A stretch of 64,000 bases of DNA from positions 1 to 64,000 of the forward strand of contig CAINNJ010000007.1 in assembly GCA_903851195.1 (NCBI GenBank). Reading direction: 5' to 3'. Below the pieces are notes generated by a model. It saw nothing but the letters and a program-made list of their open reading frames with translations, was not told where the DNA came from and did not search any database. A program made the translations under genes and the position numbers. Below are positions 8,236 to 23,121 of the stretch, piece by piece (position 1 is the stretch's first letter; every line of letters starts with the position of its first letter). The stretch is from an uncultured Acidobacteriia bacterium (GTDB taxonomy: Bacteria; Acidobacteriota; Terriglobia; Bryobacterales; Bryobacteraceae).

Positions 8236-9477
8236 TTAGCGCAGTTTGAGGCGGCGGATGGCGGACACGACAGGCGCGCTGCCCGGCTTCTTCGCGCCTT
8301 TGTCGTCGTAATCGCCCCAGCCGGAGTTGGCGATGAAGAAGAAGTCGTTTTTGATGAGCACGCCGTGGGTGGGTTCGCCGAGGCCGGGGGTGCCGGCTTC
8401 GAGGATCTCCTGTTTCTGCAGGTCGAGGGAGAAGCGGACGACGCGGGCGGGGTTGGTGCCGTTCTGGACGGCGAGGAAAGAGTTGTGGTGGACGTAGAGG
8501 CCGTCGATGCCGCTGAGCGCGATGCCGGCGGCGGGCTGGAGCCAGCGGGCTTTGCGGGTGGACACGTTCACTGCGGTGAGATCCAGGGCCGCGATGCCGC
8601 GGATGTAGTCGGGGATGTAGAGGGTCTTTTCGTCGGCGGAAAGGGCGGGGGTTTGGGGGGAGGGAAACTCGCCGGGCTCGTCGAGACGTTCGAGGGTGGC
8701 CGCGCCGCGGGGGAGGCGGAAGACGGCGCCGTGGAGTCCTTCGGAGACGTAGAGGTCGCCATGGCGGCTGATGGTCATGTCGCCGAGCAGGCCGGGGACG
8801 GGGGAGGCGATGCGTTGCTGGAGGGCGCCGGTGGTGAGGTCGAAGGCGAGGAGCGCGGTCTTGCCGTCGTCGGCCTTGTCGCAGCGGGCGCAGTGCGGGA
8901 CGTAGCGGATGGTGGCCCAGAGGAGGTGGCGGACGGGGTCGGGGCGGAGTGCGAAGACTGACCATGCCGCGGTGGCGAAGGTTTGGCCGTCGGGTCGGAG
9001 GATGCGGGCTTCGCTCACGCTGCTGAGAAGGAAGCGGCGCGTTTTGGGATCCCAGGCGATGTCTTCGGGGATCAGGTCGGGGCCGGTAATGGTGGTGAGC
9101 GAGGTGGCGTGGGCTACGGGGGTTTTATTGCGTTCGAAGCGGGCGACGAGGGCGGCGTATTCGGGGGAGGGGCGGAGGGAGGCGAAGTCGTCGTCCGGGG
9201 CGAGGTCGTAGATCAGGCCGGTGGCGGCGAGGTTGCGGAGGGAGGCGAGGGCCGCGTCGCGGTGTCCGAGGCGGGCTTCAGAGGCGGCGAGGTTGTAGAG
9301 GATGCGGGGATTGCCGGGCAGGAGGGGTTGGAGTTCGAGGAGGACGGAGCGAAGTTTGGAGTAGTCTTTGGCGTCGATGGCGGCGCGGGCTTCGGCGTTG
9401 AGCTGACGCCAGCGGGGGGCCTGGGCGGGGAGGAAAGCGGCGAGGAGCGCGAGCGCCGGAAGCAGGCGGAGTGGCAT
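8236..9477 (-). CDS. Secreted TPR plus beta-propeller (SMP-30/NHL-like) protein
   Basis: About 413 residues. A signal peptide (LRLLPALALLAAFLPAQ) is followed by a short tetratricopeptide-like helical part (roughly residues 20-95, with NAEARAAIDAKDYSKLRSVL and a repeat around ILYNLAASEARLGHRDAAL), then a six-bladed-propeller-like region from about residue 125 to the end with recurring YLP/YIPD and IDGLYV strands. It resembles SMP-30/gluconolactonase-type propellers, but no metal-site set was confirmed. ATG 9477 was preferred to 9495 because it places the signal peptide correctly. It heads the minus-strand three-gene group. Confidence 0.7.
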   Translation of the reverse strand: MPLRLLPALALLAAFLPAQAPRWRQLNAEARAAIDAKDYSKLRSVLLELQPLLPGNPRILYNLAASEARLGHRDAALASLRNLAATGLIYDLAPDDDFASLRPSPEYAALVARFERNKTPVAHATSLTTITGPDLIPEDIAWDPKTRRFLLSSVSEARILRPDGQTFATAAWSVFALRPDPVRHLLWATIRYVPHCARCDKADDGKTALLAFDLTTGALQQRIASPVPGLLGDMTISRHGDLYVSEGLHGAVFRLPRGAATLERLDEPGEFPSPQTPALSADEKTLYIPDYIRGIAALDLTAVNVSTRKARWLQPAAGIALSGIDGLYVHHNSFLAVQNGTNPARVVRFSLDLQKQEILEAGTPGLGEPTHGVLIKNDFFFIANSGWGDYDDKGAKKPGSAPVVSAIRRLKLR

Positions 9478-9640
9478 GGCTTCATTGTGGGTCACGGCGG
9501 ACGCGAATTTATTTTAATTTTTTCCAAGCTGCTGAAAAGGCGCGGGATGGGGGCGGCCGGGGAGGGCTCCGGGCAGGGGCTGCCGAGTGGGTTTGTGGTG
9601 GCGCATCCGGCAGAATCGGAGCGGAAAGGGGAAACGCCAC

Positions 9641-12600
9641 TTGCCCGAACGAGTTTATAAGTTACAGCCGGACCGGACGGTCCACCTTCGAGGATTCGAT
9701 AGTTTCGCGGCCGGAGCAGCCATTCATTCCGCGTCGGGCGAGGGGTTCCGGGTGAGCGGGACGTTTCGGGATCCGGCGGATTTCGCGGTGGTGGTGCTGT
9801 ACGACGCGGATAACTTCTACGAGCATCCGTCGATCAAGTATCTGCCGGATTTCGATTTTTCCGGATTGTCGCTGCGGTTCCGGATGCAGTATACGGACGG
9901 GCTGCAGCCGATCGATTCGCCGAAGTTCAACTGGATCGACTGGGCGACGCTCGATTGCGTGCTGGTGGACGGGAGCACGCCGCAGGTCCGGCTGTGGGAT
10001 CACGCGATGCTGGCGGACGCGGACTTTCCGGCGGCGTCGGGCAGTTGCACGGTGGTGACGTCGGGCGGCGGGGTGGAGGCGTACGACCGGGTCACGCTCT
10101 GGTACCAGAATGTGGCGTTCGACTACATTGTGCCGGAGGGGCAGAAGAGCGTGGAGTTCGCGTTTTTCGCGATCGGAAACGGGCACACGCACTTCATCAC
10201 GGTGAACGGGCGGACCTATTCGCATACGGAGGCGACGCCGGCGGGAGAGAGCAGCGCGGCGCAGGCGGCGGCGCTGCTGAGCCAGATGGGCGGGGATCCT
10301 GACGTGGAAGCGGCGTTGGGCAGTGCAGGCAACACCGTGCGGCTGACGGTGCGGGATTCGAGCGCGGGGGTGAGCATTCCGGTGAGCGCGTCGGACGGGA
10401 ACGGGTCGACGGTGATGCGGCTGACGACGGCGGAACTGGCGGCGGAGGGGCTGGTGGAGGCCGTGAATGCGACGGACTGGGTGACGGCGAATACGACGCA
10501 TGCGCTGCTGGCGTCGCGGACCGGGGCGCAGATCACGCTGACGGCGGCGCGGTACGGGACGGTGAACGTGAGCGGAGCGGCGTTGACTCTGGCATCGGGG
10601 ACGGTGTTTTCCGGGATCACCGTAGGGTCGACGATTCTGGTGGGCGGGGTGGCGTATACGGTGGCGTCGGTGGAGTCGCCGACGCGGCTTACGCTCACGA
10701 GTGCGGCGGCAGCGGGTTCGGGGGTGGCTTATGTGGCTCCGCGCGGGGGGCGGGACGGGAATCTGATCCGTCTTTATGCAACTTCGAAGACGGCGACGCT
10801 GGGGCTGGACCAGAGCGAGATCGTGCTGAGCGGGGGGCGATCCGATGTGGCCTGGGACTGCACGCTCGATTTCACGGCGCTGGGAATCGACCAGTTGCGG
10901 CAGTGCTGGCTAACGTTTGCGCCGTCGCTGGTGGCGGGGAGTTATGCGGCAACGGAGTGGGAGGCGGTTTTCAGCAACTGGCAGCTGACGGGGCCGGAAG
11001 ACACGAAGAAGTTGGTGGTGGCGGGACCGGGAAGCGTGCGGGTGGAGCAGTCGGACAAGGCCTGCGTGTTCGCGCCGGCGTCCGTCTGGACGGAGGAGAC
11101 CGGGTTTTATTCGAAGTACTTCGCGAAGGTGACGTCGGACAGCGGCGCGACGGTGACGGCGAGTTACACGTGCCAGTTCGCGCACGACTTGTATCTGGGG
11201 ACGTCGCTCGATGTGAGCCGGGGGGTGGTTTGGGTGCGTGTGGACGCGGACGCGGAGACTTCGCTCGATTGTCGTCTGGCGACGACCGGTTCGCCGGTGG
11301 GGACGCGGCGGCTGCTGCGGTCCGGAGTGGCGGCGGGGAAGCATACCGTGGCGATCCGGATGAAGCAGGCGGGGCCGTTCTATTTCGATTTCCTGGAAGC
11401 CGCGGTGGCGAGCGATTTTCCGGATGCGCCGACGGGTCGGACGGGGATCTCACCGGCGCTCGATTACGATACCGACCATACCTACAAGCTGTCGCCGGCG
11501 CGGCTGCTGTGGATTTTCGACAAGCTGGGCTATGCGGGGCCGATGAACGAGTACCTGGGGGTGTTCTGGTGGAACCGGCGGGTGGCATCCGGCGGGGCGT
11601 TTGCGGCGGCGAGCGCGACGTTTGCGGGGACGTTCGCGGAGGGGGAGACGGTTTCGCTGACGGTGAACGGGGTGACGATCCGGAAGAGCGTGTACGCGGC
11701 GGATACGAGTGAGACGATCGCGCTGCATTTCCGGAACGCGATCAACAGCGCGTTCGTGGGGGCGTGGGCGGCGGCGGCGGCGGGGACGGTGACGGTGACG
11801 CAGCGCTCGCCCGCGGCGGCCTACGCGCTGACGCTGAGCACGGCCACAACGTCCGCGATGGGCACGGCTACGGTGACGCAGGCGCCGACGGCGAGCGCGT
11901 TTCCGGTGTGGGTGGTGGACGACGCGGCGGAGCCTTTGCTGACTCGATCGGCGCGGGACTGGCACGCGGATTTCTATGCGGAGTGCCAGAGCCGCGGGCG
12001 GGAGGTGGTGACGGCGTGCTCGATGGAACTGGTGAATCCGCCGGAGGGGTATGTGGCGCGGTTTCCTGATCCGCTGCGAACGGCGGTGGCGACGGCGACG
12101 GGATTCGGCAAGCTGGTTTCGAACCACTGCGCGGCGGGGTCGGCGAAGATGCTGGCGTATCAGAAAGGGGTGTACCGGGAGATCGCGCAGTTGCAGGTTG
12201 CGGCGGGGCTGACGCCGGCGGTGCAATACGGCGAGTTCCTGTGGTGGTACTTCGCGTTGGCGGACGATCTGGAGGTGGGGTACGCGAGCTATTCGGCGCC
12301 GATCTCGATCGGGACGGCGAAGGCGCATGGACTGAGCACGGGGGCGTCGGTGGTGATCACGGGGGTGAAGGGGAATACCGCGGCGAACGGGACGTGGACG
12401 ATCACGGTGACGGATGCCACGCATTTCACCCTGGACGGGTCGAGCGGGAGCGGGGATTACACGTCCGGCGGCGCGATTTTCGGTGGCGGGATGGGATTTT
12501 ACGACGACGAGACGATGGCGGCGGCGATGACGGTGCTGGGGCGTCCGCTGCATGTGTTTAACCGGCGGGACGAGGATCCGGGGGTGAACGGCGGCGCGGA

Positions 12601-13099
12601 TGCGCTGTTTTTGCGGAACCGGCTGCGCGATCACGTGGCGGAGTTGGTGGCGGATATCCGGTCGGCGTATCCCGCGGTAAAGTGCGAGGTTTTATGGCCA
12701 TACGACGTGAACTATCCCACGCCGGTGCCGGTGGGAGCGCCGTATCTGGGAGGGGCGCTCGTGCGAGCCGTGAATCTTCCGGCGGAGTGGAAGGGAAAGG
12801 CGTCGAGCGGGCTGGACAGAATGAAGGTGGAGGCGCTGGCGTTTGGTTCGTCGATGAGAAATCTGGACCTGGCGCGGGAGGCGATCAAATTGTTTCCGGG
12901 CTTCGGGTGGCCGCTCGATTCGGTGCGGTACCTGGTGCCTGTGTTTGGGGCGGCGGCCCCGTGGCATCGGGAACTGGCGATGGCACGGGGCGCCGGGTTG
13001 ACGGTGAACAATCTGTGGGCTTTCGACCACGTGTGTCTTTACAATCTGGACGTTCCGGAGCGCGGGCTGGAGCGGCGGTCGGTGGTTCGGGCCGGTTAG
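9641..13099 (+). CDS. Orphan phage-tail-like mosaic protein with TIM-barrel region
   Basis: About 1152 residues from TTG 9641, chosen because a purine-rich GGAAAGGGG lies at 9622-9630; GTG 9587 is an alternative. No signal peptide. The N-terminal ~200 residues (GFDSFAAGAAIHSAS, YDADNFYEHPSIKYLPDFDF) are followed by modules typical of phage tail and fibre proteins: two domains of the VNG...SHTEATPA / VNGVTIRKSVYAADTSE type, a segment VGSTILVGGVAYTVASVES, and an FCCH-like module (AKAHGLSTGASVVITGVKGN) inserted in a C-terminal TIM-barrel-like region (about residues 650-1150). The frame is intact over 3.4 kb. No terminase, capsid, portal or tape-measure gene is nearby. It may be a domesticated tail or sheath component; the identity is by module recognition only. 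Confidence 0.65.
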   Translation: MPERVYKLQPDRTVHLRGFDSFAAGAAIHSASGEGFRVSGTFRDPADFAVVVLYDADNFYEHPSIKYLPDFDFSGLSLRFRMQYTDGLQPIDSPKFNWIDWATLDCVLVDGSTPQVRLWDHAMLADADFPAASGSCTVVTSGGGVEAYDRVTLWYQNVAFDYIVPEGQKSVEFAFFAIGNGHTHFITVNGRTYSHTEATPAGESSAAQAAALLSQMGGDPDVEAALGSAGNTVRLTVRDSSAGVSIPVSASDGNGSTVMRLTTAELAAEGLVEAVNATDWVTANTTHALLASRTGAQITLTAARYGTVNVSGAALTLASGTVFSGITVGSTILVGGVAYTVASVESPTRLTLTSAAAAGSGVAYVAPRGGRDGNLIRLYATSKTATLGLDQSEIVLSGGRSDVAWDCTLDFTALGIDQLRQCWLTFAPSLVAGSYAATEWEAVFSNWQLTGPEDTKKLVVAGPGSVRVEQSDKACVFAPASVWTEETGFYSKYFAKVTSDSGATVTASYTCQFAHDLYLGTSLDVSRGVVWVRVDADAETSLDCRLATTGSPVGTRRLLRSGVAAGKHTVAIRMKQAGPFYFDFLEAAVASDFPDAPTGRTGISPALDYDTDHTYKLSPARLLWIFDKLGYAGPMNEYLGVFWWNRRVASGGAFAAASATFAGTFAEGETVSLTVNGVTIRKSVYAADTSETIALHFRNAINSAFVGAWAAAAAGTVTVTQRSPAAAYALTLSTATTSAMGTATVTQAPTASAFPVWVVDDAAEPLLTRSARDWHADFYAECQSRGREVVTACSMELVNPPEGYVARFPDPLRTAVATATGFGKLVSNHCAAGSAKMLAYQKGVYREIAQLQVAAGLTPAVQYGEFLWWYFALADDLEVGYASYSAPISIGTAKAHGLSTGASVVITGVKGNTAANGTWTITVTDATHFTLDGSSGSGDYTSGGAIFGGGMGFYDDETMAAAMTVLGRPLHVFNRRDEDPGVNGGADALFLRNRLRDHVAELVADIRSAYPAVKCEVLWPYDVNYPTPVPVGAPYLGGALVRAVNLPAEWKGKASSGLDRMKVEALAFGSSMRNLDLAREAIKLFPGFGWPLDSVRYLVPVFGAAAPWHRELAMARGAGLTVNNLWAFDHVCLYNLDVPERGLERRSVVRAG

Positions 13100-14070
13100 C
13101 GGCGGCCGCCACCGTGGAACCCGCCGGCTGCAAAGCCGTGGCTGACGCCGCCGCGGAAACCACCGGCGCCAGCGAAACCGCTCGCGCGCGGCGCTACGGT
13201 GCTGCGGAAGCCGGGCCGGATACCGTGAATCGGGGCCGAACCGATGAGCGGACGACGGAAGTACCGGGGGGAACCGTAGTAGCCTCCGTAGAACGGCGCG
13301 TAGCCGAGTGAGTAGAACGGGTAGCCGAACGGGCTATAGAAGAAGCCATCGCCGGGCAGCCAGGAGTACATGGAGAAGTACGGATTCCAATACCAGCCGG
13401 CACCCGAGTAAGGCCCGTAGCCGGAGGAGATGTAACGCGCAGTTGAGGCGTTCGCTTCGGCCAGGTAGTTGGAACGAATGTCGCTCCAGACGTAGAGTTC
13501 GTCTTTGGTGTGGCGGTCGAAGCTGACGGCTTTCAGTTTCGGGGCGTTGTCGAGGAGGATTTCCTTGCCCTTCCCGATTTCTTTCGACTGGTCATTCGAG
13601 GCGACGAGGAGTTTTCCGTCGATCACGCCGATTTTGCTCTGATCGGCATCGAACCGGTACAGGCCTTCTTTTAAGACGGAGGCAGTGGCACCGTGTTCCA
13701 CGATGTCGAGGTGAGCTTCTTTGAGCTTGCTGTCCACTTCGATGAGGGCCGAACCGTGAACGACTTCCACGCGGGGATCGACCAGTGCGGGGGAGATCAT
13801 GCGCACTTCGCTGTTACTGCCGAGGCGGAGGAACGCGCCGGGTGACAGGAGTACTTCCGCTTTGCCGTCCGCGGTGGCGATTGCCTGGTTGGCGCGGAGA
13901 GCGGTGGACCCGATTTGCTGGGAGTTGAGCGGCGCGCCGTCGATGGAGACGTTGCCTTCGATGTAGTTCACGGCGCCGGGCGCGCCCATGGCGGGAGCGG
14001 TGCGGGCCATGAGAACGCCCGAAGCAAGCGTCAGCAGGATCGCGGACCTTTTGAGACTTTGGGTTTTCAT
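13096..14070 (-). CDS. FecR-domain secreted protein with Gly/Tyr/Phe-rich tail
   Basis: A 324-residue exported protein with a signal peptide (LKRSAILLTLASGVLMA). Residues about 30-190 form a FecR-like domain (GNVSIDGAPL, ADGKAEVLLSPGAFLRLGS, VIDGKLLV). The rest is low-complexity, rich in Gly, Tyr, Phe and Pro, ending in Gly-Gly-Gly-Arg-Arg. FecR domains sense or bind at the cell envelope, but this protein lacks the transmembrane anchor of the iron-signalling FecR and has no sigma factor or anti-sigma gene next to it. Its stop codon overlaps the stop of the phage-tail-like gene on the other strand (13096-13099). Such proteins are frequent in acidobacteria; the role is unknown. Confidence 0.72.
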   Translation of the reverse strand: MKTQSLKRSAILLTLASGVLMARTAPAMGAPGAVNYIEGNVSIDGAPLNSQQIGSTALRANQAIATADGKAEVLLSPGAFLRLGSNSEVRMISPALVDPRVEVVHGSALIEVDSKLKEAHLDIVEHGATASVLKEGLYRFDADQSKIGVIDGKLLVASNDQSKEIGKGKEILLDNAPKLKAVSFDRHTKDELYVWSDIRSNYLAEANASTARYISSGYGPYSGAGWYWNPYFSMYSWLPGDGFFYSPFGYPFYSLGYAPFYGGYYGSPRYFRRPLIGSAPIHGIRPGFRSTVAPRASGFAGAGGFRGGVSHGFAAGGFHGGGRR

Positions 14071-14267: not shown

Positions 14268-15098
14268 ATGTCAACACAGGTGGAGCCGCAGCCGGACAAG
14301 ACTCCCTGGCAGCGAGTCCAGAACGCGCGTCATCCGAAACGTCCGCACACGCTCGATTATGTGCAGCGTATTCTGACGGATTTCCAGGAAATCCACGGGG
14401 ATCGGCTGTTTGGCGACGATGCCGCGATTGTGTGCGGGATGGGACGGCTGGACGGGCAACCGGTGATGCTGGTGGGCGAGCAGAAGGGGCGCGACACGAA
14501 ACAGAAGCTGCTGCGCAACTTCGGGATGCCGAAGCCGGAGGGGTACCGGAAGGCGCTGCGGGCGATGCAGATGGCGTCGAAGTTCGAGCGGCCGATTATC
14601 GCGCTGCTGGACACGCCGGGCGCGTATCCGGGAATCGACGCGGAAGAGCGGGGGCAGGCGGAAGCGATCGCGCGGAATCTGCGGGAGATGGCGCGGCTGC
14701 GGGTGCCGGTGGTTTCGGTCTGCATCGGCGAAGGCGGCAGCGGCGGCGCTCTGGCGCTCGGGGTGGGAAATCAGGTGCTGATGCTGGAGAACGCGGTTTA
14801 CAGCGTGATTTCTCCGGAAAGCTGCGCGGCAATCATCTATCGGGACTCAGCGAAGGCGGAACAGGCGGCGGCGGCGCTGCGGCTGACGGCGGAAGATTTG
14901 CTGAAACTCGGGCTGGTGGACGGGATTATTCCGGAACCGCCGGGCGGCGCGCACGAGGACCACGACGAAGCGGCGCGCTTTCTGAAAGCGCAACTGGTGA
15001 AGTCGCTGGCGGAACTGGGCGCGATGACGTCGAACGAACTGGTGCAGGACCGATACGAGAGATTCCGCAAGATGGGGAATTTCTTTACAGGCGAGTAG
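14268..15098 (+). CDS. accA: Acetyl-CoA carboxylase carboxyltransferase subunit alpha
   Basis: A 276-residue AccA, the half of the carboxyltransferase that passes the carboxyl group from biotin to acetyl-CoA in the first step of fatty-acid synthesis, working with Acc[53 protein letters not shown] and [14 protein letters not shown] are diagnostic. E. coli AccA has 319 residues; about 45 residues of helical N-terminus are missing here. A TGA in frame at 14262-14264 lies two codons upstream of the ATG, so the short form is real and not a wrong start. accD is not in the window. A small membrane-anchored protein gene follows after 3 bp. Confidence 0.95.
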
Positions 15099-15101
15099 GG
15101 T

Positions 15102-15380
15102 ATGGCGAAATCCAAACGCAAGTGGCCGGTGATCGCGGGAGTGGTTTTCATTGCCGTATTTATCGCCGCGCTGGTTTATACGTCGGGCGGCAACAATGCT
15201 TACCGCTGCGAGGTGTGCGTGACTTTCGAAGGCCGGACGGTTTGCCGGAATGGCGGCGCGCCCACCAAAATGGAAGCGGAGCGGATTGCGAGCGATACCG
15301 CGTGCACGGATCTTTCGAGCGGCATGACGAGCCTGCTGCAGTGCCAGAACAACGCGCCCCGCAAAGTCACCTGGAAATAG
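15102..15380 (+). CDS. Small membrane-anchored four-cysteine protein
   Basis: A 92-residue protein: basic N-terminus (MAKSKRKW), one membrane helix (about residues 9-27), then an exported domain of about 60 residues with cysteines in CEVCVTF, VCRNGG, TACTDL and LQCQNN, i.e. five cysteines of which four could pair. No family recognised. The three-base gap after accA suggests co-transcription, although no functional link to fatty-acid synthesis is evident. Confidence 0.6.
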   Translation: MAKSKRKWPVIAGVVFIAVFIAALVYTSGGNNAYRCEVCVTFEGRTVCRNGGAPTKMEAERIASDTACTDLSSGMTSLLQCQNNAPRKVTWK

Positions 15381-15523
15381 GCAATAAGCGGTTGGAAATC
15401 AACCAGTTAGCTGCCGAACCCGATTTTCGCGTGCTATTCTGTCGTATACATTTGAACAAACAGGCGCAGAATTGCGTCTATGAACTTGGACGCCGTTAAC
15501 CCTACACCGGAGTACTACAAATC

Positions 15524-16978
15524 GTGAAGACCAAATGGAAGATTGTGATCGGAGTTGTTGTGTTGCTGCTGATCGCGGCGGGCGTGCTCGCCAGCGTGAA
15601 ATACAGCCAGAAAGACATCGTCACGGTTCAGACGGGCAAGGTTCTGAAGGAGGATCTCGCCAGTGTCGTAACCGCGTCCGGTGAGGTGAAGCCGCGCAAC
15701 TACATTACGATTGGCGCCGAGTATTCCGGGCAGTTGACGGACATTCTGGTGAAGGAAGGCGACCGGGTCCGCAAAGGTCAGAAGCTGGCGCAGATCGACG
15801 AGGCGCAGTCGAAAGCCGATGTCACGGCGCAGGAAGCGGCGCTGAGTTCGGCGCAGGCGGACGCGCTGGCGAGCGAGGCCTCGGTGACCGCGGGCGAGGC
15901 GTCGGTGAAGGCGGGCGAGGACAACATCGCGGCGCTGGAATCGACGGTGAACCGCACGAAGTCCGATCTGGAACGGTATGACAAAGATTTCAAGCGGGGC
16001 GAGCAGTTATTCAAAGACGGGCTGATTCCGCGTTCGGATTTCGAACAGCGGCAGGCGCTGTACGAGAGCCAGAAGTCGTCCGTGGCCGAAGCGCAGTCGC
16101 GCGTGGTGCAGGCGAAAACGCAGCTGGCGCAACTGAGGGCGCAGGCAGCGCAGTTGCGGGCGCAGCTGGCGGGATCGCAGAAGAAGATTGCGCAGTCGCA
16201 GGCGGGCCTGACTCGCGTGGCCGACATTCTGCGAAAGCACAACGCGGTGGCGCCTATCGATGGACTGGTCACGTACTTGCCGGTGCGGGTGGGTGAAACG
16301 GTGCAGCCGGGTGTTCAGAATTCGGCGGCCAGCACGATTATGACGATCGCCGACATGTCGATCGTGACGGCGGAAGTAAAAGTGGACGAGACAGATATCG
16401 TGAATGTGAAGCTGGATCAGCCGGCGGAGATCACGGTGGACGCGATTCCGGGGAAAGTGTTCAAAGGGCACGTGATCGAGATCGGTAATACGGCGATTCT
16501 GCGGTCGACGGGTCTGGCGGCTTCCACGAGCACGACTTCGAGCCAGGAAGCGAAAGATTTCAAGGTGGTAGTGGCGATGGACAATCCGCCGGACGAGATC
16601 CGGCCGGGTTTGTCGTGCACCGCGAAGGTGACGACAGCGACGCGCAAAGACGCGACGGCGATTCCGATTCAGGCGCTGACCACGCGGACGAAGGGCGATC
16701 TGCTGCCGGAGAAGGACAAGCCGGTGAATCCGGATCCGGTGACGGCCAAGGCGAACAAGGAAGAAGTACAGGGCGTGTTCGTGATCGGGGCGAATAACAA
16801 AGCGGAGTTCCGCAAGGTGGAGACCGGGATCACGGGTTCGACCGAGATCGAGGTGCTGAGCGGTTTGAAGGTGGGCGACGAGATCGTCACCGGCAGCTAC
16901 CAGGTGATCCGCAGCATGAAGAACGGCGCGACGGTGAAGATCGACAATAAGCCGCCCGTGGTGAAGACGACTACGTAG
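15524..16978 (+). CDS. MacA/HlyD-type periplasmic adaptor of an ABC exporter
   Basis: A 484-residue membrane-fusion protein. After an N-terminal anchor ([19 protein letters not shown]) come the first lipoyl half ([35 protein letters not shown]), a long alpha-hairpin/coiled coil (about residues 95-230, Ala/Gln/Glu-rich), the second lipoyl half ([18 protein letters not shown]), a beta-barrel and a membrane-proximal domain ([19 protein letters not shown]). It should bridge an inner-membrane ABC transporter to an outer-membrane factor. GTG 15524 is preceded by GGAG at 15509-15512. The ATPase gene follows after 25 bp; the permease is absent here. Confidence 0.88.
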
Positions 16979-17003
16979 TTCGCCGGACTCAGGGAGATTC
17001 GTA

Positions 17004-17747
17004 ATGGCACAGGCAACGATCGACGCGTCGGTGGAGAAGGGCGAGCGGCTGAAGCGCGACGGGATCGTCATCCGGACGTACGACATCTGGAAGACGTACA
17101 CGATGGGCGACCAGGTGATCAACGCGGTTTCCGGCGTGGATATCGAGATCAAGCGGGGCGAGTATGTGGCGATTATGGGGCCGTCGGGGTCCGGTAAATC
17201 GACGCTGATGAATCTGATCGGGTGTCTGGATACGCCGTCGAAGGGCGAGTATTACATCAACGGGCGGCTGGTCAGCGAGATGGACGACGACGAACTGGCG
17301 CAGATCCGGAATAAGGAAATCGGATTTGTGTTCCAGACGTTTAATCTGTTGCCGCGGGCGAGCGCGCTGCACAATGTGGAACTGCCGCTGATTTATAACG
17401 GGACGCCTCCGGCGGCGCGGATCGCGAAGGCGAAGGCGGCGCTGCAGCAGGTGGATCTGACGCAGCGGATGGATCATAAGCCGAATGAGTTGTCGGGCGG
17501 TCAGCGGCAGCGCGTGGCGATTGCGCGGGCGCTGGTGAACAGTCCGTCGATCATTCTGGCGGACGAGCCGACGGGAAATCTGGATACGGCGACCGGCAAT
17601 GAAATCATGGCGCTGTTCGAGCGGCTTTACCGGGAAGGGAATACGATTATCCTGGTGACGCACGAGCACGATATCGCGCTGCATGCGCACCGGATTATCG
17701 CGATTCGGGACGGGAAGATTGAGCGGGATGAGGTGGTCCCTCATTAG
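17004..17747 (+). CDS. ABC transporter ATPase, MacB/LolD/FtsE group
   Basis: A 247-residue nucleotide-binding subunit. Walker [10 protein letters not shown] is at residues 59-67, the Q-loop near 111 ([10 protein letters not shown]), the signature [15 protein letters not shown] from 163, and Walker B with catalytic Glu188 in [11 protein letters not shown]. The closest architecture is the stand-alone ATPase of MacB/LolD-type exporters, which act mechanically on periplasmic partners. It pairs with the adaptor upstream. Unusually, no FtsX/MacB-type permease follows; the next gene is a 71-residue membrane protein. The permease may be encoded elsewhere. Confidence 0.92.
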
Positions 17748-18714: not shown

Positions 18715-20112
18715 TCAAGCCAGGACAGGTTTTACGACTTCGCCTGCAACATCGGTTAGCCGGAAATCGCGGCCCTGGAAGCGGTAGGTCAGGCGCTTGT
18801 GATCGATTCCCAGGCAGTGCAGGATGGTCGCCTGGAGGTCGTGGACGTGCACGGGGTCCTTCGTGATGTTGTAGCTGTAGTCGTCGGTCTCGCCATGGGT
18901 CAGGCCGGGTTTGATGCCGCCGCCGGCCATCCAGACGGTGAAGCAGCGCCCGTGGTGGTCGCGGCCGTAATCGGTGGCGGTTAAGCGGCCCTGGCAGTAG
19001 ACGGTGCGGCCGAACTCTCCTCCCCAAATCACCAGCGTGTCGTCGAGCATGCCCCGCTGGGCGAGGTCGGTGATGAGGGCGGCGGACGCCTGATCCACAT
19101 CCTTGCAGCGCTTCGGCAGGTTGGCGGGGAGGCCGCCGTGGTGGTCCCAATCGCGGTGATAGAGCTGGATGAAGCGGACGCCGCGTTCGGCGAGGCGGCG
19201 GGCGAGGAGGCAGTTGGCGGCGAAGGTGCCGGGCTTTTTGGCGTCATCACCGTAGAGTTCGAAAGTGCTAGCGGGCTCCTTCGAGATGTCGGTCAGGCTG
19301 GGGACGGAGGTCTGCATCCGGAACGCCATTTCGTACTGGGAGACGCGGGCGGCGGTTTCGGGGTCGCCAAACTCGGAGGCGGTGATCTGGTTGAGTTCGC
19401 CGAGGGCATCGAGGAAGCCGCGGCGGTTCTCGCCGGAGAAGCCGGGCGGGTTGGAGAGGTAGAGCACGGGGTCGCCGCCGGAGCGGAACTTCACGCCCTG
19501 GTAGCGGCTGGGGAGGAAGGCGCTGCCCCAGAGGCGGTCGTAGAGGGGCTGGCCGCCGCCGTTGGTCGAAATCATGACGCAGAAGGCCGGCAGGTCATCG
19601 GTTTCGGAGCCGAGTCCGTAGGAGACCCAGGCGCCGAGGCTGGGGCGTCCACCGAGACGGAAGCCGGTCTGGAACATGGTGACGGCGGGATCGTGATTGA
19701 TTTCCTCCGTGTTCACGGTCTTGATGAAGGTAAGCTTGTCGGCGATTTTCGCCGTGTAGGGCAGGAGTTCGCCCACCCAGGCTCCGGACTGACCGCGCTG
19801 CTCGAGTTTGAATTTCGAGGGGACGACGGGGAAGGTGGACTGGGAGGCGGACATGCCGGTGAGGCGCTGGCCGTTGCGGACGGATTCGGGAAGGTCGGTG
19901 CCCTGGAACTCGGTGAGGCGCGGTTTGTGGTCGAACAGTTCGATCTGGGAGGGGCCGCCGGACTGGAACAGGTAGATGACGCGCTTCGCTTTGGGGGTGA
20001 AGTGGGGCAGGCCGGGGAGGCCGTGCTGGACGTGTTCGGCGCCGGTGGCGGCGCGCAGTTCGCGCCCGAGAAGCGATGCCAGTGCGATGCCGTGAAAATG
20101 TCGTCTGGTCAC
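18715..20112 (-). CDS. DUF1501 (sulfatase-fold) secreted protein, module A
   Basis: A 465-residue DUF1501 protein with a Tat-like leader ([15 protein letters not shown]). DUF1501 belongs to the alkaline-phosphatase/sulfatase superfamily. Family landmarks are [68 protein letters not shown] and a final [21 protein letters not shown]. The conserved Asp/His residues of these motifs suggest a metal site. The substrate is not known. It lies 3 bp after the PSD1 protein gene, its constant partner in planctomycetes, verrucomicrobia and acidobacteria. Confidence 0.9.
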
Positions 20113-20115
20113 TGT

Positions 20116-23100
20116 TTATTCCTTCGTAATCGTTTCGTCGAGGTTCAGGATAAGGCTGGCGACGCTGGTGTAGGCTGCCAGTTCCGCGGGATCGAGACCG
20201 GGACGGACGGGGGAATCGCCCTCATGAATATATTCTGACGCGGATTTGGGGTCGGCGCGGAAGCCGGTTTCGAAGCGCTGGAAGGTCTTAAGCAGCACGG
20301 GTTGCTGGCGGGCGTTGGGCCGGCGCGCCAAAACCACGTTGAAGCCCCAGGCGAGGCGGGCGTCCGGGGTGGCGCCGCCTTCGGTCATCATTCGTTCGGC
20401 GAGCTTGCGGGAGGCTTCGAGGAAGGTCACCTCATTCATGAGATCGAGCGCCTGGAGGGGCGAGTTGGTGCGGTTTTCGAAGACGGCGCACTGCTCGCGG
20501 TTGGGCGAATCGAAATTCATCATGTAGGGGTGCGGGATGGTGCGCTTCCAGTAGGTGTAGAGGCTGCGGCGGTAGAGATCGGCGCCTTTGGACTGGACGT
20601 AGCCGTTGTTGCCGGAGAGTTCCTGCCAGAGTCCGGCGGGCTGGTAGGGTTTGACGGACGGGCCGCCGATTTTGTCGGTGAGGAGGCCGGAGACGAGCAG
20701 GGCCTGGTCGCGAATGGCTTCGGGGCCGAGGCGGAGGCGGGGACCGCGTGCGAGGAGTCGATTGTCGGGATCCTTTTCGAGCAGGGCGGGGGTGGCTACG
20801 GAGGACTGGCGGTAGGTTTCGCTCATGACGATGAGCTTCTGGATGGCCTTGACGTTCCAGCCGCTGTCCATGAATTCGACGGCGAGCCAGTCGAGCAGTT
20901 CGGGGTGGACGGGCCATTCGCCCTGGGAGCCGAAGTCGTCAACCGTTTTGACGATGCCGAAGCCGAAGAAGGACTGCCAGAAGCGGTTTACGGTGACGCG
21001 GGCGGTGAGGGGATTCCTGCGGCTGACGAGCCAGCGGGCGAGGGTGAGGCGGTTATTCGGCTGGGCGGGGTCGAGGGGAAGAGTGTCGCTGAGGATGGCG
21101 GGAATGCCGGGGGTGAGTTTTTCGCCGGGGGCGTCGTAGGCGCCGCGTTTCAGCAGGAAGGTGTCGCGTTGGGCACCGTCCGCCATCACCATGACGGTGG
21201 AGATGGAGTCGTGGAACTTGTCGCGTTCCGACTGGAGGGCGAGGAGACGGGCGCGGGCTTCGCGGATGTCTTTGGGGGCGGCGGTTTCGAGGAATTCGAG
21301 GTGGAGCCGCGCTTTGGTCTGGCCCGCGACGGCGGCGGCTTCTTCGGCGTCGAGGGCGCGCTTGTAGATGCGGGCGTCGCCGATGGCGCCCGTGAAGCGG
21401 AGTCCGCCGCCCGCGCCGATGCGGATGGGCGTGTTCTTTTTATTAAAAGGTTCGGTGTTCTGGTCGAAAAGAATTTTAACGGGCTGCGGTTCTCCGTTCA
21501 CGTAAATCTTCACGCCGCGCGCGAGGCGTTTGCCGTCGTAGGTGACCAGGACATGCTGCCATTCGCGTTGTTTGACGGGGTTGACGGATTCGACGCGGAG
21601 GCCGAGGTCGGTAAAGCGCTGGGTGAGGTGCAGGCGGATGCGGCCCTTCATGAGGTAGAGGCCGTGGCCCTGGCTTTCGATGAAGTCGTCGAGGCGGGTG
21701 AGGATGGCGCCGTCCTCGGTCTCCGGCTTAATCCAGGCAGAGAAGGTGAAGGGCTGCAGATAGCCGAAGACGGCGGCTTCGCCGTTGGCTTCGAGGAACT
21801 GTTTGCCGTCGTATTGTAACGCTTTGCCCGCAGGACTGGTTTCGACGGGGAGATCGGATTTCACCCAGTCGGAGCGGAAGATCAGGTCGCCGGCGGGCGT
21901 CCAGGTGTCGGCGCGTTTGGGATTGAGTTTGGCTTCCCAGGCGGACTGGGCGGCGCGGAGTTTGGGCTGGAGGGCGTCGTAGTCTTTTTGGGCGGCGGCG
22001 ATTTGTGAATCGAGTTCGTTAAGGTGCTGCGTTTCGGCGGGGAGCGGGGCTTTGACGAAGGGCTCTTCGGGGCCGTAGTTCCAGGTGAAGCCCTTTTCGT
22101 CGGGGATCTGGTTGAAGAAGGCGTAGAGGCGGTAGAAGTCTTTTTGGGCGATGGGATCGTATTTGTGGTCGTGGCAGCGGGCGCAGCCGACGGTGAGGCC
22201 CATGAAGACGGTAGCGGTGGTTTGAGTGCGGTCGGCGACGTACTCGACGCGGTACTCCTCCGGGATAATGCCGCCTTCGCCGGTGGTGCGGTGATTGCGG
22301 TTGAAGCCGGTGGCGATGCGCTGGTCGAGGGTCGCGTTGGGCAGCAGGTCGCCGGCGATTTGCTCGGTGGCGAACTGGTCGTAGGGCATGTTGTTGTTGA
22401 AGGCGGCGATGACCCAGTCGCGCCAGCGCCACATTTCGCGGGGGCCGTCGGTCTGGTAACCGTTGCTGTCGCCGTAACGGGCCGCCTCCATCCAGCGGAA
22501 GGCCATGCGCTCGCCGTAGTGCGGAGAGGCCAGGAGGCGGTCGACGACTTTCTCCCAGGCGTTCGGGGCGGTGTCGGCAAGGAACGCTTCGACTTCGGCG
22601 GGGGTGGGCGGTAAGCCAGTGAGGTCGAGAGACACGCGTCGGATCAGCAGGCGTTTGTCGGCCTGCGGGGAGGGGTGCAAGCCCTCGCGTGCGAGGCGGG
22701 TCTGAATGAAGTAGTCGATGGCGCTGCGTCCGGCGGGGACTTCGGGGCGCTGCGGCGGGATGAAAGACCAGAAGGGCTGCCAGGGAGCGCCCTGGGTGAT
22801 CCAGGCGCGGAGGAGGTCGACTTCGCGCGGGGTGAGTTTCGCTTTGCCGGAGGATTCGGGCGGCATGCGGTCGGCGCCGGTGGCGGTGACCCGCCGGATC
22901 ATTTCACTCTGTTCGGGGTGGCCCGGGACGAAGGCGGACGGGGCGGAACCGGGGATGTCGAAACGGATTCCCGCCTGGCGGTGTGTGGCGTCGGGACCGT
23001 GGCAGGTAAAGCAGCGGTCGGAGAGGATGGGGCGGATGTCGCGGTTGAATTCGACAGGCTGCGCTCTTGCTGCTGCGGCGAGGGCGAGGAGAAGCGGGAA

Positions 23101-23121
23101 GGTAGATTGCAGGCCGGACAT
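20116..23121 (-). CDS. PSD1 / planctomycete cytochrome-C domain protein with LamG, module A
   Basis: A 1001-residue exported protein. A signal peptide is followed by a PSCyt1 domain with a haem-binding CFTCH (about residue 37), PSCyt2/DUF1549 (about 140-350) including a second CxxCH in GCARCHDHKYDPI, a concanavalin/LamG-like carbohydrate-binding insert (about 400-590, GKALQYDGKQFLEAN, SAWIKPETEDGAILTR), and PSD1/DUF1553 at the C-terminus. The two CxxCH motifs point to c-type haem. The LamG insert distinguishes it from the two other PSD1 proteins here and suggests a polysaccharide substrate. It precedes its DUF1501 partner by 3 bp. Confidence 0.9.
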   Translation of the reverse strand: MSGLQSTFPLLLALAAAARAQPVEFNRDIRPILSDRCFTCHGPDATHRQAGIRFDIPGSAPSAFVPGHPEQSEMIRRVTATGADRMPPESSGKAKLTPREVDLLRAWITQGAPWQPFWSFIPPQRPEVPAGRSAIDYFIQTRLAREGLHPSPQADKRLLIRRVSLDLTGLPPTPAEVEAFLADTAPNAWEKVVDRLLASPHYGERMAFRWMEAARYGDSNGYQTDGPREMWRWRDWVIAAFNNNMPYDQFATEQIAGDLLPNATLDQRIATGFNRNHRTTGEGGIIPEEYRVEYVADRTQTTATVFMGLTVGCARCHDHKYDPIAQKDFYRLYAFFNQIPDEKGFTWNYGPEEPFVKAPLPAETQHLNELDSQIAAAQKDYDALQPKLRAAQSAWEAKLNPKRADTWTPAGDLIFRSDWVKSDLPVETSPAGKALQYDGKQFLEANGEAAVFGYLQPFTFSAWIKPETEDGAILTRLDDFIESQGHGLYLMKGRIRLHLTQRFTDLGLRVESVNPVKQREWQHVLVTYDGKRLARGVKIYVNGEPQPVKILFDQNTEPFNKKNTPIRIGAGGGLRFTGAIGDARIYKRALDAEEAAAVAGQTKARLHLEFLETAAPKDIREARARLLALQSERDKFHDSISTVMVMADGAQRDTFLLKRGAYDAPGEKLTPGIPAILSDTLPLDPAQPNNRLTLARWLVSRRNPLTARVTVNRFWQSFFGFGIVKTVDDFGSQGEWPVHPELLDWLAVEFMDSGWNVKAIQKLIVMSETYRQSSVATPALLEKDPDNRLLARGPRLRLGPEAIRDQALLVSGLLTDKIGGPSVKPYQPAGLWQELSGNNGYVQSKGADLYRRSLYTYWKRTIPHPYMMNFDSPNREQCAVFENRTNSPLQALDLMNEVTFLEASRKLAERMMTEGGATPDARLAWGFNVVLARRPNARQQPVLLKTFQRFETGFRADPKSASEYIHEGDSPVRPGLDPAELAAYTSVASLILNLDETITKE

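Follow-up and report, generated by a model that had tools for sequence, protein, structure and literature searches.

A stand-alone tail sheath gene of Bryobacteraceae as the probable partner of a conserved, gene transfer agent-like head-tail cluster

The first 64,000 nucleotides of contig CAINNJ010000007.1 (assembly GCA_903851195.1), referred to here as the window, come from an uncultured acidobacterium of the family Bryobacteraceae and contain, at 9641–13099 on the forward strand, a gene whose product is, by sequence and predicted fold, a non-contractile tail sheath protein (NCTSP) of the phage N4 type. The initial annotation of this DNA, made from the letters alone, described an intact, phage-tail-like protein without phage genes around it. 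The uninterrupted frame that it reported is real: the stop-free translation has 1152 residues with TTG as first codon, and a match to it at E 0.001 or better is present in all 19 genomes of the same genus (a few cut by contig ends), which is beyond chance. The longest frame with a start codon at this locus opens at 9587 and would give 1170 amino acids; however, the TTG at 9641 is the likelier true start, because the frames of four relatives (L048, L051, L054 and L056) start there and because a conserved leader lies directly 5′ of it. This leader (9611–9640, forward strand), found de novo in 13 upstream regions from the genus, consists of CAGAATCGGAGCGG and a purine-rich, ribosome-binding-like stretch directly before the start.

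Assignment to the NCTSP family is based on both profiles and structure prediction. The Pfam family for the NCTSP TIM barrel (PF23845) matches residues 762–871 with E 1.1e-13 (51.4 bits, gathering cut-off 27), so the TIM-barrel region of the initial annotation stands, as does its FCCH-like insert, which is recognised by E1_FCCH (PF16190, E 4.7e-7, above the Pfam cut-off) at residues 893–946 (12317–12478, forward strand) and occurs in four of the 16 stand-alone genus rows of alignment A1 and is missing from the other 12. The VNG-type domains also proposed were not reported by Pfam; in their place is a weak match to the NCTSP N-terminal domain (PF23844, E 3e-4), which at 20.4 bits is under the cut-off of 27 in the window protein and at 27.6 bits just passes it in the phage relative L008. 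Among PHROGs profiles, phrog_6040 (1.2e-19) and the tail sheath profile phrog_165 (4.8e-6) match. An AlphaFold model, for which 37 relatives served as the input alignment, has a pLDDT of 90 and a pTM of 0.85, and among solved structures Foldseek ranks two N4 tail chains highest (E 1.1e-9 and 9.3e-9). In VIA-align, where the rows mostly cover residues 600–1145 of the model, the same two chains score Z 27.1 and 25.9: residues 755–1146 superimpose on the N4 sheath 9yf5_SA (Z 27.1) over 300 residues with a root-mean-square deviation of 2.8 and 14% identity, and residues 753–1142 align to 9lc0_M. The next row, at Z 19.0, is a non-phage protein, and the lower rows (Z about 16–19) include sugar-cleaving TIM barrels, i.e., PgaB, GH35 and beta-amylase. 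Thus, the C-terminal region (residues 753–1146; 11897–13078, forward strand) is predicted to be a TIM barrel of the N4 sheath type, split by the FCCH-like insert; had it lacked any likeness to tail proteins, the initial annotation would have been abandoned on its own terms. Foldseek also matches proteins with carbohydrate-binding modules, and two of the five best matches among predicted viral structures are named non-contractile tail sheath TIM barrel protein. Two glutamates, Glu1016 and the Glu865 of a GEFLWW motif, are invariant in both alignments made; that they are catalytic is only a guess.

Relatives of the protein are found both in phage contigs and, far more regularly, in the chromosomes of the family. 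A tblastn search of 50,697 phage records at E 1e-3 returned no relative, and no second sheath copy was found in the genome of the window itself. In IMG/VR, six contigs carry relatives with 41–46% identity, five of them nearly full length and one cut at the contig end; two of these (L008 and L009) have a nearly identical stretch. The ancestry of the window gene is read as a siphophage-type tail module, because in L008 the sheath relative follows genes for a 913-residue tape measure, a DUF2460-like protein and a J-like fibre. Within the genus, stand-alone copies are 60–70% identical to the window protein, and across the family a match at E 1e-10 or better is present in 206 of 237 genomes and 73 of 76 genera. 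An apparent rarity of the protein (four of 396 genomes in a phylum-wide sample) was an artefact of the thin representation of the family in that sample. If relatives had consistently been embedded in prophages, the idea of a domesticated component would have failed; only four of 41 loci taken from genome records adjoin phage tail genes of the query panel, two of these four being in one genome. Genome G416 has two very similar prophage-like loci (L060 and L061), each with a J-like gene adjoining a sheath gene, besides its stand-alone copy.

A relative in another genus indicates where the remaining parts of a particle may be encoded. In genome G289, the sheath relative lies within a cluster with TerL, portal, major head, tail and J genes (PHROGs), and when its J-like hub was used as a query against the genome of the window, there was a single match, 48% identical, on a different contig. 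The sheath gene is on contig C7; the hub belongs to a cluster of about 14 kb on contig C8 (112907–126905), which is colinear with that of G289 (TerL 60%, portal 60%, capsid 78% and hub 47% identical), has one extra small gene, g103, and lacks the sheath gene that follows the hub in G289. A search for split tail genes elsewhere in the genome, which the initial annotation had suggested, therefore yielded a head-tail cluster without a sheath. In 22 clusters from 14 genera (one truncated at a contig end) the order of the matched genes is constant: TerL, portal, a possible protease, capsid, g103, g255, g165, tail390, g138, g124, tape measure, g119, distal and hub. The lengths of the open reading frames are nearly constant in 34 clusters, with a capsid of 303 amino acids in 33 of 34 and a hub of 1294–1311 in 32 of 33, although each start was taken as the one closest to the start of the reference protein, which builds in part of the constancy on that side (the capsid frame of the window's own genome can be read as 328 or 303 amino acids). 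The tape measure is very short, 152–205 amino acids in the 29 clusters measured, compared with 913, 869 and 999 in the phage contigs L008, L010 and L013. In TerL, the residues read here as Walker A, Walker B and nuclease motifs are conserved in 95% or more of 33 sequences, and in a further set of 16 they are invariant in all. One cluster (L098, genome G410) has a broken hub, represented by an 860-residue piece, and otherwise looks complete, which may be an assembly error or decay; this hub was excluded from the hub dN/dS given below, and genomes G416, G403 and a few others are without single cluster genes.

In the genome of the window, Pfam recognises the capsid as a P22 coat protein (PF11651) and gives terminase matches. 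Downstream of the cluster are genes for a Wzt-like ATPase, an M24 peptidase, a short-chain dehydrogenase and a penicillin-binding protein; the other flank has a short unknown gene and one for a beta-barrel outer membrane protein. Since Wzt-like or M24 genes adjoin the cluster in several genera, its chromosomal place is old. No integrase, repressor or replication family was found among the 10 proteins of this cluster and its flanks scanned with Pfam, or among the 10 cluster proteins of G289 scanned with PHROGs. Of the 237 family genomes, 197 have the capsid gene, mostly as a single copy, with 74–94% identity among the family matches listed and the highest identity in the window's own genus; in the phylum sample it matched in four of 396 genomes, two of them family members (77–100%) and two others at 28–29%. 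At least 594 IMG/VR stretches have a capsid match. Of these, 80 (L166–L245) were kept for analysis; their contigs are at most 19,035 bases long and contain 61 TerL, 33 hub, eight type A sheath and no type B sheath matches (identity above 45%), the two types being defined below. Catalogues of viruses therefore probably include this cluster among the viruses they count.

Two types of sheath gene occur in the family. Type A, as in G289, lies directly 3′ of the hub in all nine type A clusters fetched; type B, as in the window, is stand-alone where examined. A genome was scored as type A when its best E was below 1e-125 and as type B when it was below 1e-80, thresholds set after the lists had been viewed: G439, with a type B match of 6.9e-80, was excluded from type B, and G541, G522 and G471, with about 1e-112 to type A, were scored as type B only. 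By this measure 39 of the 76 genera have type A only, 20 (including that of the window) type B only, 12 a mixture and five neither; by genome, the 237 divide into 123 with type A only, 69 with type B only, 10 with both and 35 with neither. Type A was not found in the window's genus, where the best matches of a type A query are type B genes. Each genome thus tends to have one type, and it tends to have it together with the capsid. Among the 124 family genomes with 95% or more completeness (near-complete), 107 have capsid and sheath, 12 neither, four only the sheath and one only the capsid, i.e., 12 of 13 sheath-negative genomes also lack the capsid; the 108 with a capsid comprise 51 with type A only, 47 with type B only, nine with both and one with neither. 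In the full set of 237, capsid and sheath occur together in 188 and both are missing from 22.

The contexts of the two types were compared in loci picked for long contigs and variety, not at random. In nine of the ten two-type genomes the type B copy adjoins panel phage tail genes (five via a partial hub match, and G557 via one weak match), none being seen in G530, compared with none of eight type B loci checked in genomes with type B only; two genomes with type B only, G416 and G601, also have extra prophage sheath copies. Stand-alone does not always mean distant, as in G538 the type B gene is about 2 kb past the hub on the opposite strand. In G565 (L110, 14517–17201) a type B-like gene sits precisely in the type A slot of the cluster; this in-cluster sheath groups with prophage copies (support 0.96), apart from the stand-alone type B lineage, and on the sequence evidence is an independent, in-place sheath swap.

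The cluster appears, from its trees and distribution, to be vertically inherited throughout the family. For the trees, 34 cluster genomes were used, again picked for long contigs and variety. In the unrooted sheath tree, a split with support 0.89 divides the stand-alone type B copies from every phage, prophage and type A copy, and type A is a group of its own (support 1.0); in the cluster tree all four genera with more than one genome stay together. The type B sheath tree and the cluster tree agree closely over 24 genomes (Mantel r 0.95, p 1e-4), with 14 of 21 splits in common, against a mean of 0.2 and a maximum of 4 at random. The comparison with the host is confined to one host gene and one genus: accA and the unlinked hub give a Mantel r of 0.83 (p 3e-4, eight genomes), and accA and its neighbouring sheath gene give 0.68 (nine genomes). 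The median within-genus ratio of non-synonymous to synonymous substitution (dN/dS), from unsaturated pairs, is about 0.17 for the sheath, 0.13 for the hub, 0.08 for the capsid and 0.18 for TerL.

The sheath gene and the cluster also have an upstream element in common. About 100–150 bp before the start of stand-alone sheath genes there is a two-box element, GTCAC followed by an A/T box, which in the window occupies 9491–9536 on the forward strand (GTCAC 9491–9495, A/T box 9505–9516); a similar element occurs at the head-tail cluster. A model built from the genus sheath upstream regions recovered 12 of 13 in left-one-out tests, and G410 also once its start was corrected. Of the genus cluster upstream regions, nine of 12 score above the 95th percentile of 172 controls (p 4e-7); the training sites had been read by eye with both alignments already seen, so this result is biased and those from other genera are less so. 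There, against 180 controls, the element precedes stand-alone type B genes in 10 of 13 (p 4e-7), clusters of type B genomes in seven of 11 (p 1.5e-7) and clusters with their own sheath (nine type A and G565) in six of 10 (p 7e-5), and phage, prophage or unclear sheath copies in one of 17 (p 0.16). De novo searches mostly returned the leader motif near the start codon, and cross-scans of motifs (p 0.02 to 0.998) were unconvincing.

Taken together, these results suggest, with a probability of roughly 0.75, that the window gene supplies in trans the sheath of a vertically inherited particle resembling a gene transfer agent (GTA), for which DNA packaging and delivery are proposed. The GTA-like appearance comes from a family-wide, siphophage-like cluster in which no integrase was found, conserved TerL motifs and a very short tape measure. 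Of the possibilities raised in the initial annotation, a domesticated tail component or dispersed gene-transfer particle is well supported, by the sheathless cluster in the same genome, co-occurrence, tree agreement and the upstream element; a contractile-like particle is not, since the protein family is that of a non-contractile sheath. In the proposed mechanism, the remaining parts of the particle would be made from the cluster on C8, and in this genus, in which no type A gene was found, the phage-like type B gene, usually upstream of accA, would replace it in trans. Upon induction, the cluster and the detached sheath gene would be expressed together, capsids would package host DNA via the conserved terminase, and the sheath would enclose the short tail tube. 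By analogy with the N4 sheath, the protein would probably form the receptor-binding layer of the particle: its carbohydrate-binding-like and glycosidase-like domains would dock the particle on recipient cells, docking would set the recipient range, and DNA would then be delivered. A wider proposal, for which we consider the odds to be about even, is that Bryobacteraceae have an independently evolved, family-wide GTA with an exchangeable receptor-binding sheath: the resident gene would have been lost and a phage-derived sheath placed in trans under the particle's element, with at least one in-place swap (G565), enabling the bacterium to retune its exchange partners by means of phage sheaths.

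Several observations weigh against the proposal that sheath and cluster form one particle. Of the 237 genomes, 18 have the sheath without the capsid and nine the capsid without the sheath, some genomes being incomplete, and the Fisher p for co-occurrence, though tiny, is descriptive, since related genomes overstate independence. Within the genus, the agreement of sheath and cluster trees is looser (r 0.78, four of 10 splits), and for type A it is lower again (r 0.61, p 0.01, one of six splits); dS is near saturation, which makes the sheath dN/dS indicative only. No lysis or regulator genes were identified. Even on the reverse strand, three of 12 genus cluster regions exceed the control 95th percentile for the element, and the cluster region of the window's own genome has no clean TCAC box and scores 16.5 against a control 99th percentile of 16.1. 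Nor is the element exclusive: a longer, composite pattern has 51 matches in 18 of 20 genomes (0–3 per genome for a reversed-pattern control), of which three can be placed at clusters and two at sheath genes; others lie before genes for small proteins, a GAF sensor, an ECF sigma factor and a terminase-like protein, among more. A private regulon defined by this pattern thus failed as an idea; because the element also precedes unrelated genes, either the regulon extends beyond sheath and cluster or the element represents a class of promoters. In the form TCAC ... TTT ... WWTCA-N4-BTT (L290–L337), the element recurs in some genomes with a fixed span of 44–45 bp, i.e., six times in G413, four times in G409 besides the cluster copy and four times in G522. 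The unrelated genes that it precedes there include a stand-alone terminase-like gene as well as genes for a GAF sensor and an ECF sigma factor, and it could represent either a class of stress promoters or a repeat.

Four other explanations have to be considered. That the gene is all that is left of a decayed prophage and has persisted by chance would account for its full-length relatives in IMG/VR phage contigs, its unusual neighbours and the lack of phage genes found nearby, yet a remnant would hardly be matched in every genome of the genus with 60–70% identity among stand-alone copies, have a dN/dS of this order, follow the cluster in its tree, occur as a single type in most capsid-bearing genomes or retain a conserved upstream element, and we regard this as extremely improbable. 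Domestication for work outside a particle, e.g. as a cytoplasmic or surface protein that binds glycans or acts as a glycosidase and is coupled to the accA-macAB neighbourhood, would suit the resemblance of the barrel to PgaB, GH35 and beta-amylase folds, the two invariant glutamates, the matches to carbohydrate-binding modules and the presence of accA downstream in 13 of the 19 genus genomes. It is unlikely, given that sheath-negative near-complete genomes lack the capsid with one exception, that types A and B are seldom in the same genome, that accA was not seen near type B in the other genera examined, and that the element common to the cluster precedes just one of the 17 phage or prophage copies.

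The remaining two explanations accept the particle but not its role in gene transfer. The cluster could be an active, very widespread temperate phage or satellite with a detached host-range gene, as its tail module is colinear with true siphophage-like contigs and its capsid occurs in at least 594 IMG/VR stretches. Against this, it is mostly single copy with identity highest in the window's genus, has the same host neighbours across several genera, has trees congruent with those of its sheath and of accA and lacks integrase, repressor and replication families among the proteins scanned, and the 80 IMG/VR contigs kept do not exceed 19,035 bases; hence it is a very unlikely account. A particle encoded by the cluster that does not transfer genes (e.g. 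one for killing or signalling), with the window gene as its sheath, would also suit the data, since packaging and delivery are predicted functions. However, the cluster has retained its head genes and a TerL whose ATPase and nuclease motifs are conserved, and a tail-only killer would need neither, so that this, too, is given little credence beside a GTA-like particle.

The known system closest in fold is the N4 tail sheath (9yf5_SA and 9lc0_M; Gp64 by the depositors' name, gp65 in PMC12892993), which that paper describes as stabilising the tail plug and as binding to the receptor NfrA. It shares the TIM-barrel sheath fold, but has 415 residues compared with 1152, and the window protein has in addition a beta-rich N-terminal part with carbohydrate-binding-like matches and the FCCH-like insert. 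Furthermore, the window gene, unlike that of N4, is on a bacterial chromosome apart from other virion genes, and N4 is a podophage whereas the Bryobacteraceae cluster resembles a siphophage-type module. IMG/VR contigs L008, L010, L011 and L013 have colinear tail genes that end with a J-like hub and a sheath and are recognised by cluster proteins; they differ from the clusters in their long tape measures (869–999 residues in L008, L010 and L013) and in that the sheath remains in the module. A further contig, L012, has the sheath, and a siphophage-like tail module was not seen in it.

The GTA of Rhodobacter capsulatus (RcGTA) is encoded by a chromosomal head-tail cluster of about 15 kb with a hub of roughly 1300 amino acids and a short tape measure. 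The Bryobacteraceae cluster is similar to this and to other type I GTAs of alphaproteobacteria in being chromosomal and vertically inherited with a hub of comparable length and a short tape measure; it differs in phylum, in its P22-coat-like capsid (PF11651) and in its N4-type sheath protein. No RcGTA chain was recognised among Protein Data Bank profile hits for hub, capsid and terminase at the limits used, the library's content of RcGTA being unchecked; the comparison hints at a separate origin and proves nothing. BhGTA of Brachyspira and FpGTA (the latter named in PMC12946183), from other phyla and neither acidobacterial, are comparable by description as domesticated virus-like elements.

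GTA genomes are often spread over several loci, and the definition of GTAs, as set out in PMC9662315, has six points, three of which were found in this analysis: proteins derived from caudoviricetes (TerL, portal, major head, tail and J in G289; P22 coat and terminase in the window's own genome), a fully endogenized state at several loci (the cluster on C8, flanked by host-type genes, and the sheath on C7) and mostly vertical inheritance with host co-diversification, the direct host comparison covering one gene in one genus. The same definition includes the encapsidation of mostly random host DNA, an element that its own head cannot package whole and the delivery of DNA to other cells; co-packaging of the element would be unlikely here, because cluster and sheath are at separate loci. 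A contractile injection system or tailocin does not fit a non-contractile sheath family and a cluster with head genes and TerL, nor does a prophage fit the host-type genes around the window copy and a set of scanned cluster and flank proteins among which there was no integrase. According to a review (PMC11841831), novel GTAs cannot be located definitively by their sequence features, and GTAs and remnant prophages are mistaken for each other.

No acidobacterial GTA was found among the results listed in searches of full-text literature, subscription papers and preprints being outside their scope. PMC5900883 deals with acidobacterial prophages and mentions gene transfer agents in a general sense, PMC12142844 links phage-like contigs to Acidobacteriaceae in peat moss and names GTAs generally, and PMC6172770 gives contamination or GTAs as a possible source of non-viral DNA in a peat virome; the word Acidobacteria was not found in PMC9662315, PMC11841831 or PMC12946183. 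If the particle is as proposed, it would give the phylum a route of gene exchange that the literature searched does not describe for it, and some of the unexplained host DNA of soil viromes could derive from it. Members of this acidobacterial family are commonly found in soil and peat. Because type A genomes and type B genomes coexist in genus g213, this genus would offer a natural test of how recipient range is set in domesticated particles. The case also illustrates that one isolated tail gene can point to a conserved particle, and that clusters of this kind are listed as viruses in a viral database.

The genes around the sheath gene are host-type. Among the nearby window genes scanned there was no capsid, terminase, tape measure or integrase, in agreement with the absence of phage genes noted initially, so a prophage around the window gene was rejected; a search of the window's own genome for the tape-measure family PF06791 also gave no match. 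The divergent upstream gene (8236–9495, reverse strand), an open reading frame initially called a propeller, gave just weak tetratricopeptide repeat matches in profile scans, so that label is a tentative one. The FecR neighbour (13096–14070, reverse strand; PF04773, 1.6e-5) was correctly named and lies between the sheath gene and accA, the gene for the carboxyltransferase alpha subunit of acetyl-CoA carboxylase (14268–15098, forward strand; PF03255, 6e-131; NF004344). No homologue of the FecR gene clustered in the other genus loci compared or occurred in the 41 context loci; matches to it occur in 213 of 237 family genomes, and those of the three closest genomes (G403, G405 and G406) are on a different contig from the sheath gene. 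After accA, profile matches and gene orders define a conserved host run (15102–17747, forward strand) of a small protein with a hydrophobic stretch, judged by eye (15102–15380), a MacA-like adaptor (15524–16978) and a MacB-like ATPase (17004–17747), an order that follows accA in most of the 13 genus genomes in which accA is adjacent to the sheath gene or separated from it by one gene. In G409, G413 and G414 accA is not downstream of the sheath gene, and in G405, G407 and G417 the contig ends there. Since no accA was found near type B genes in the other genera examined, a function linked to accA was set aside and this neighbourhood is read as a landing site without a functional link. The small protein (92 amino acids, with several cysteines) is conserved between accA and the MacA-like gene in those genus loci that reach it, and has a weak match to a double-stranded RNA binding motif. 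Elsewhere in the window, at 18715–23121 on the reverse strand, a DUF1501 gene adjoins a PSD1/PSCyt2 gene with a laminin-G-like domain.

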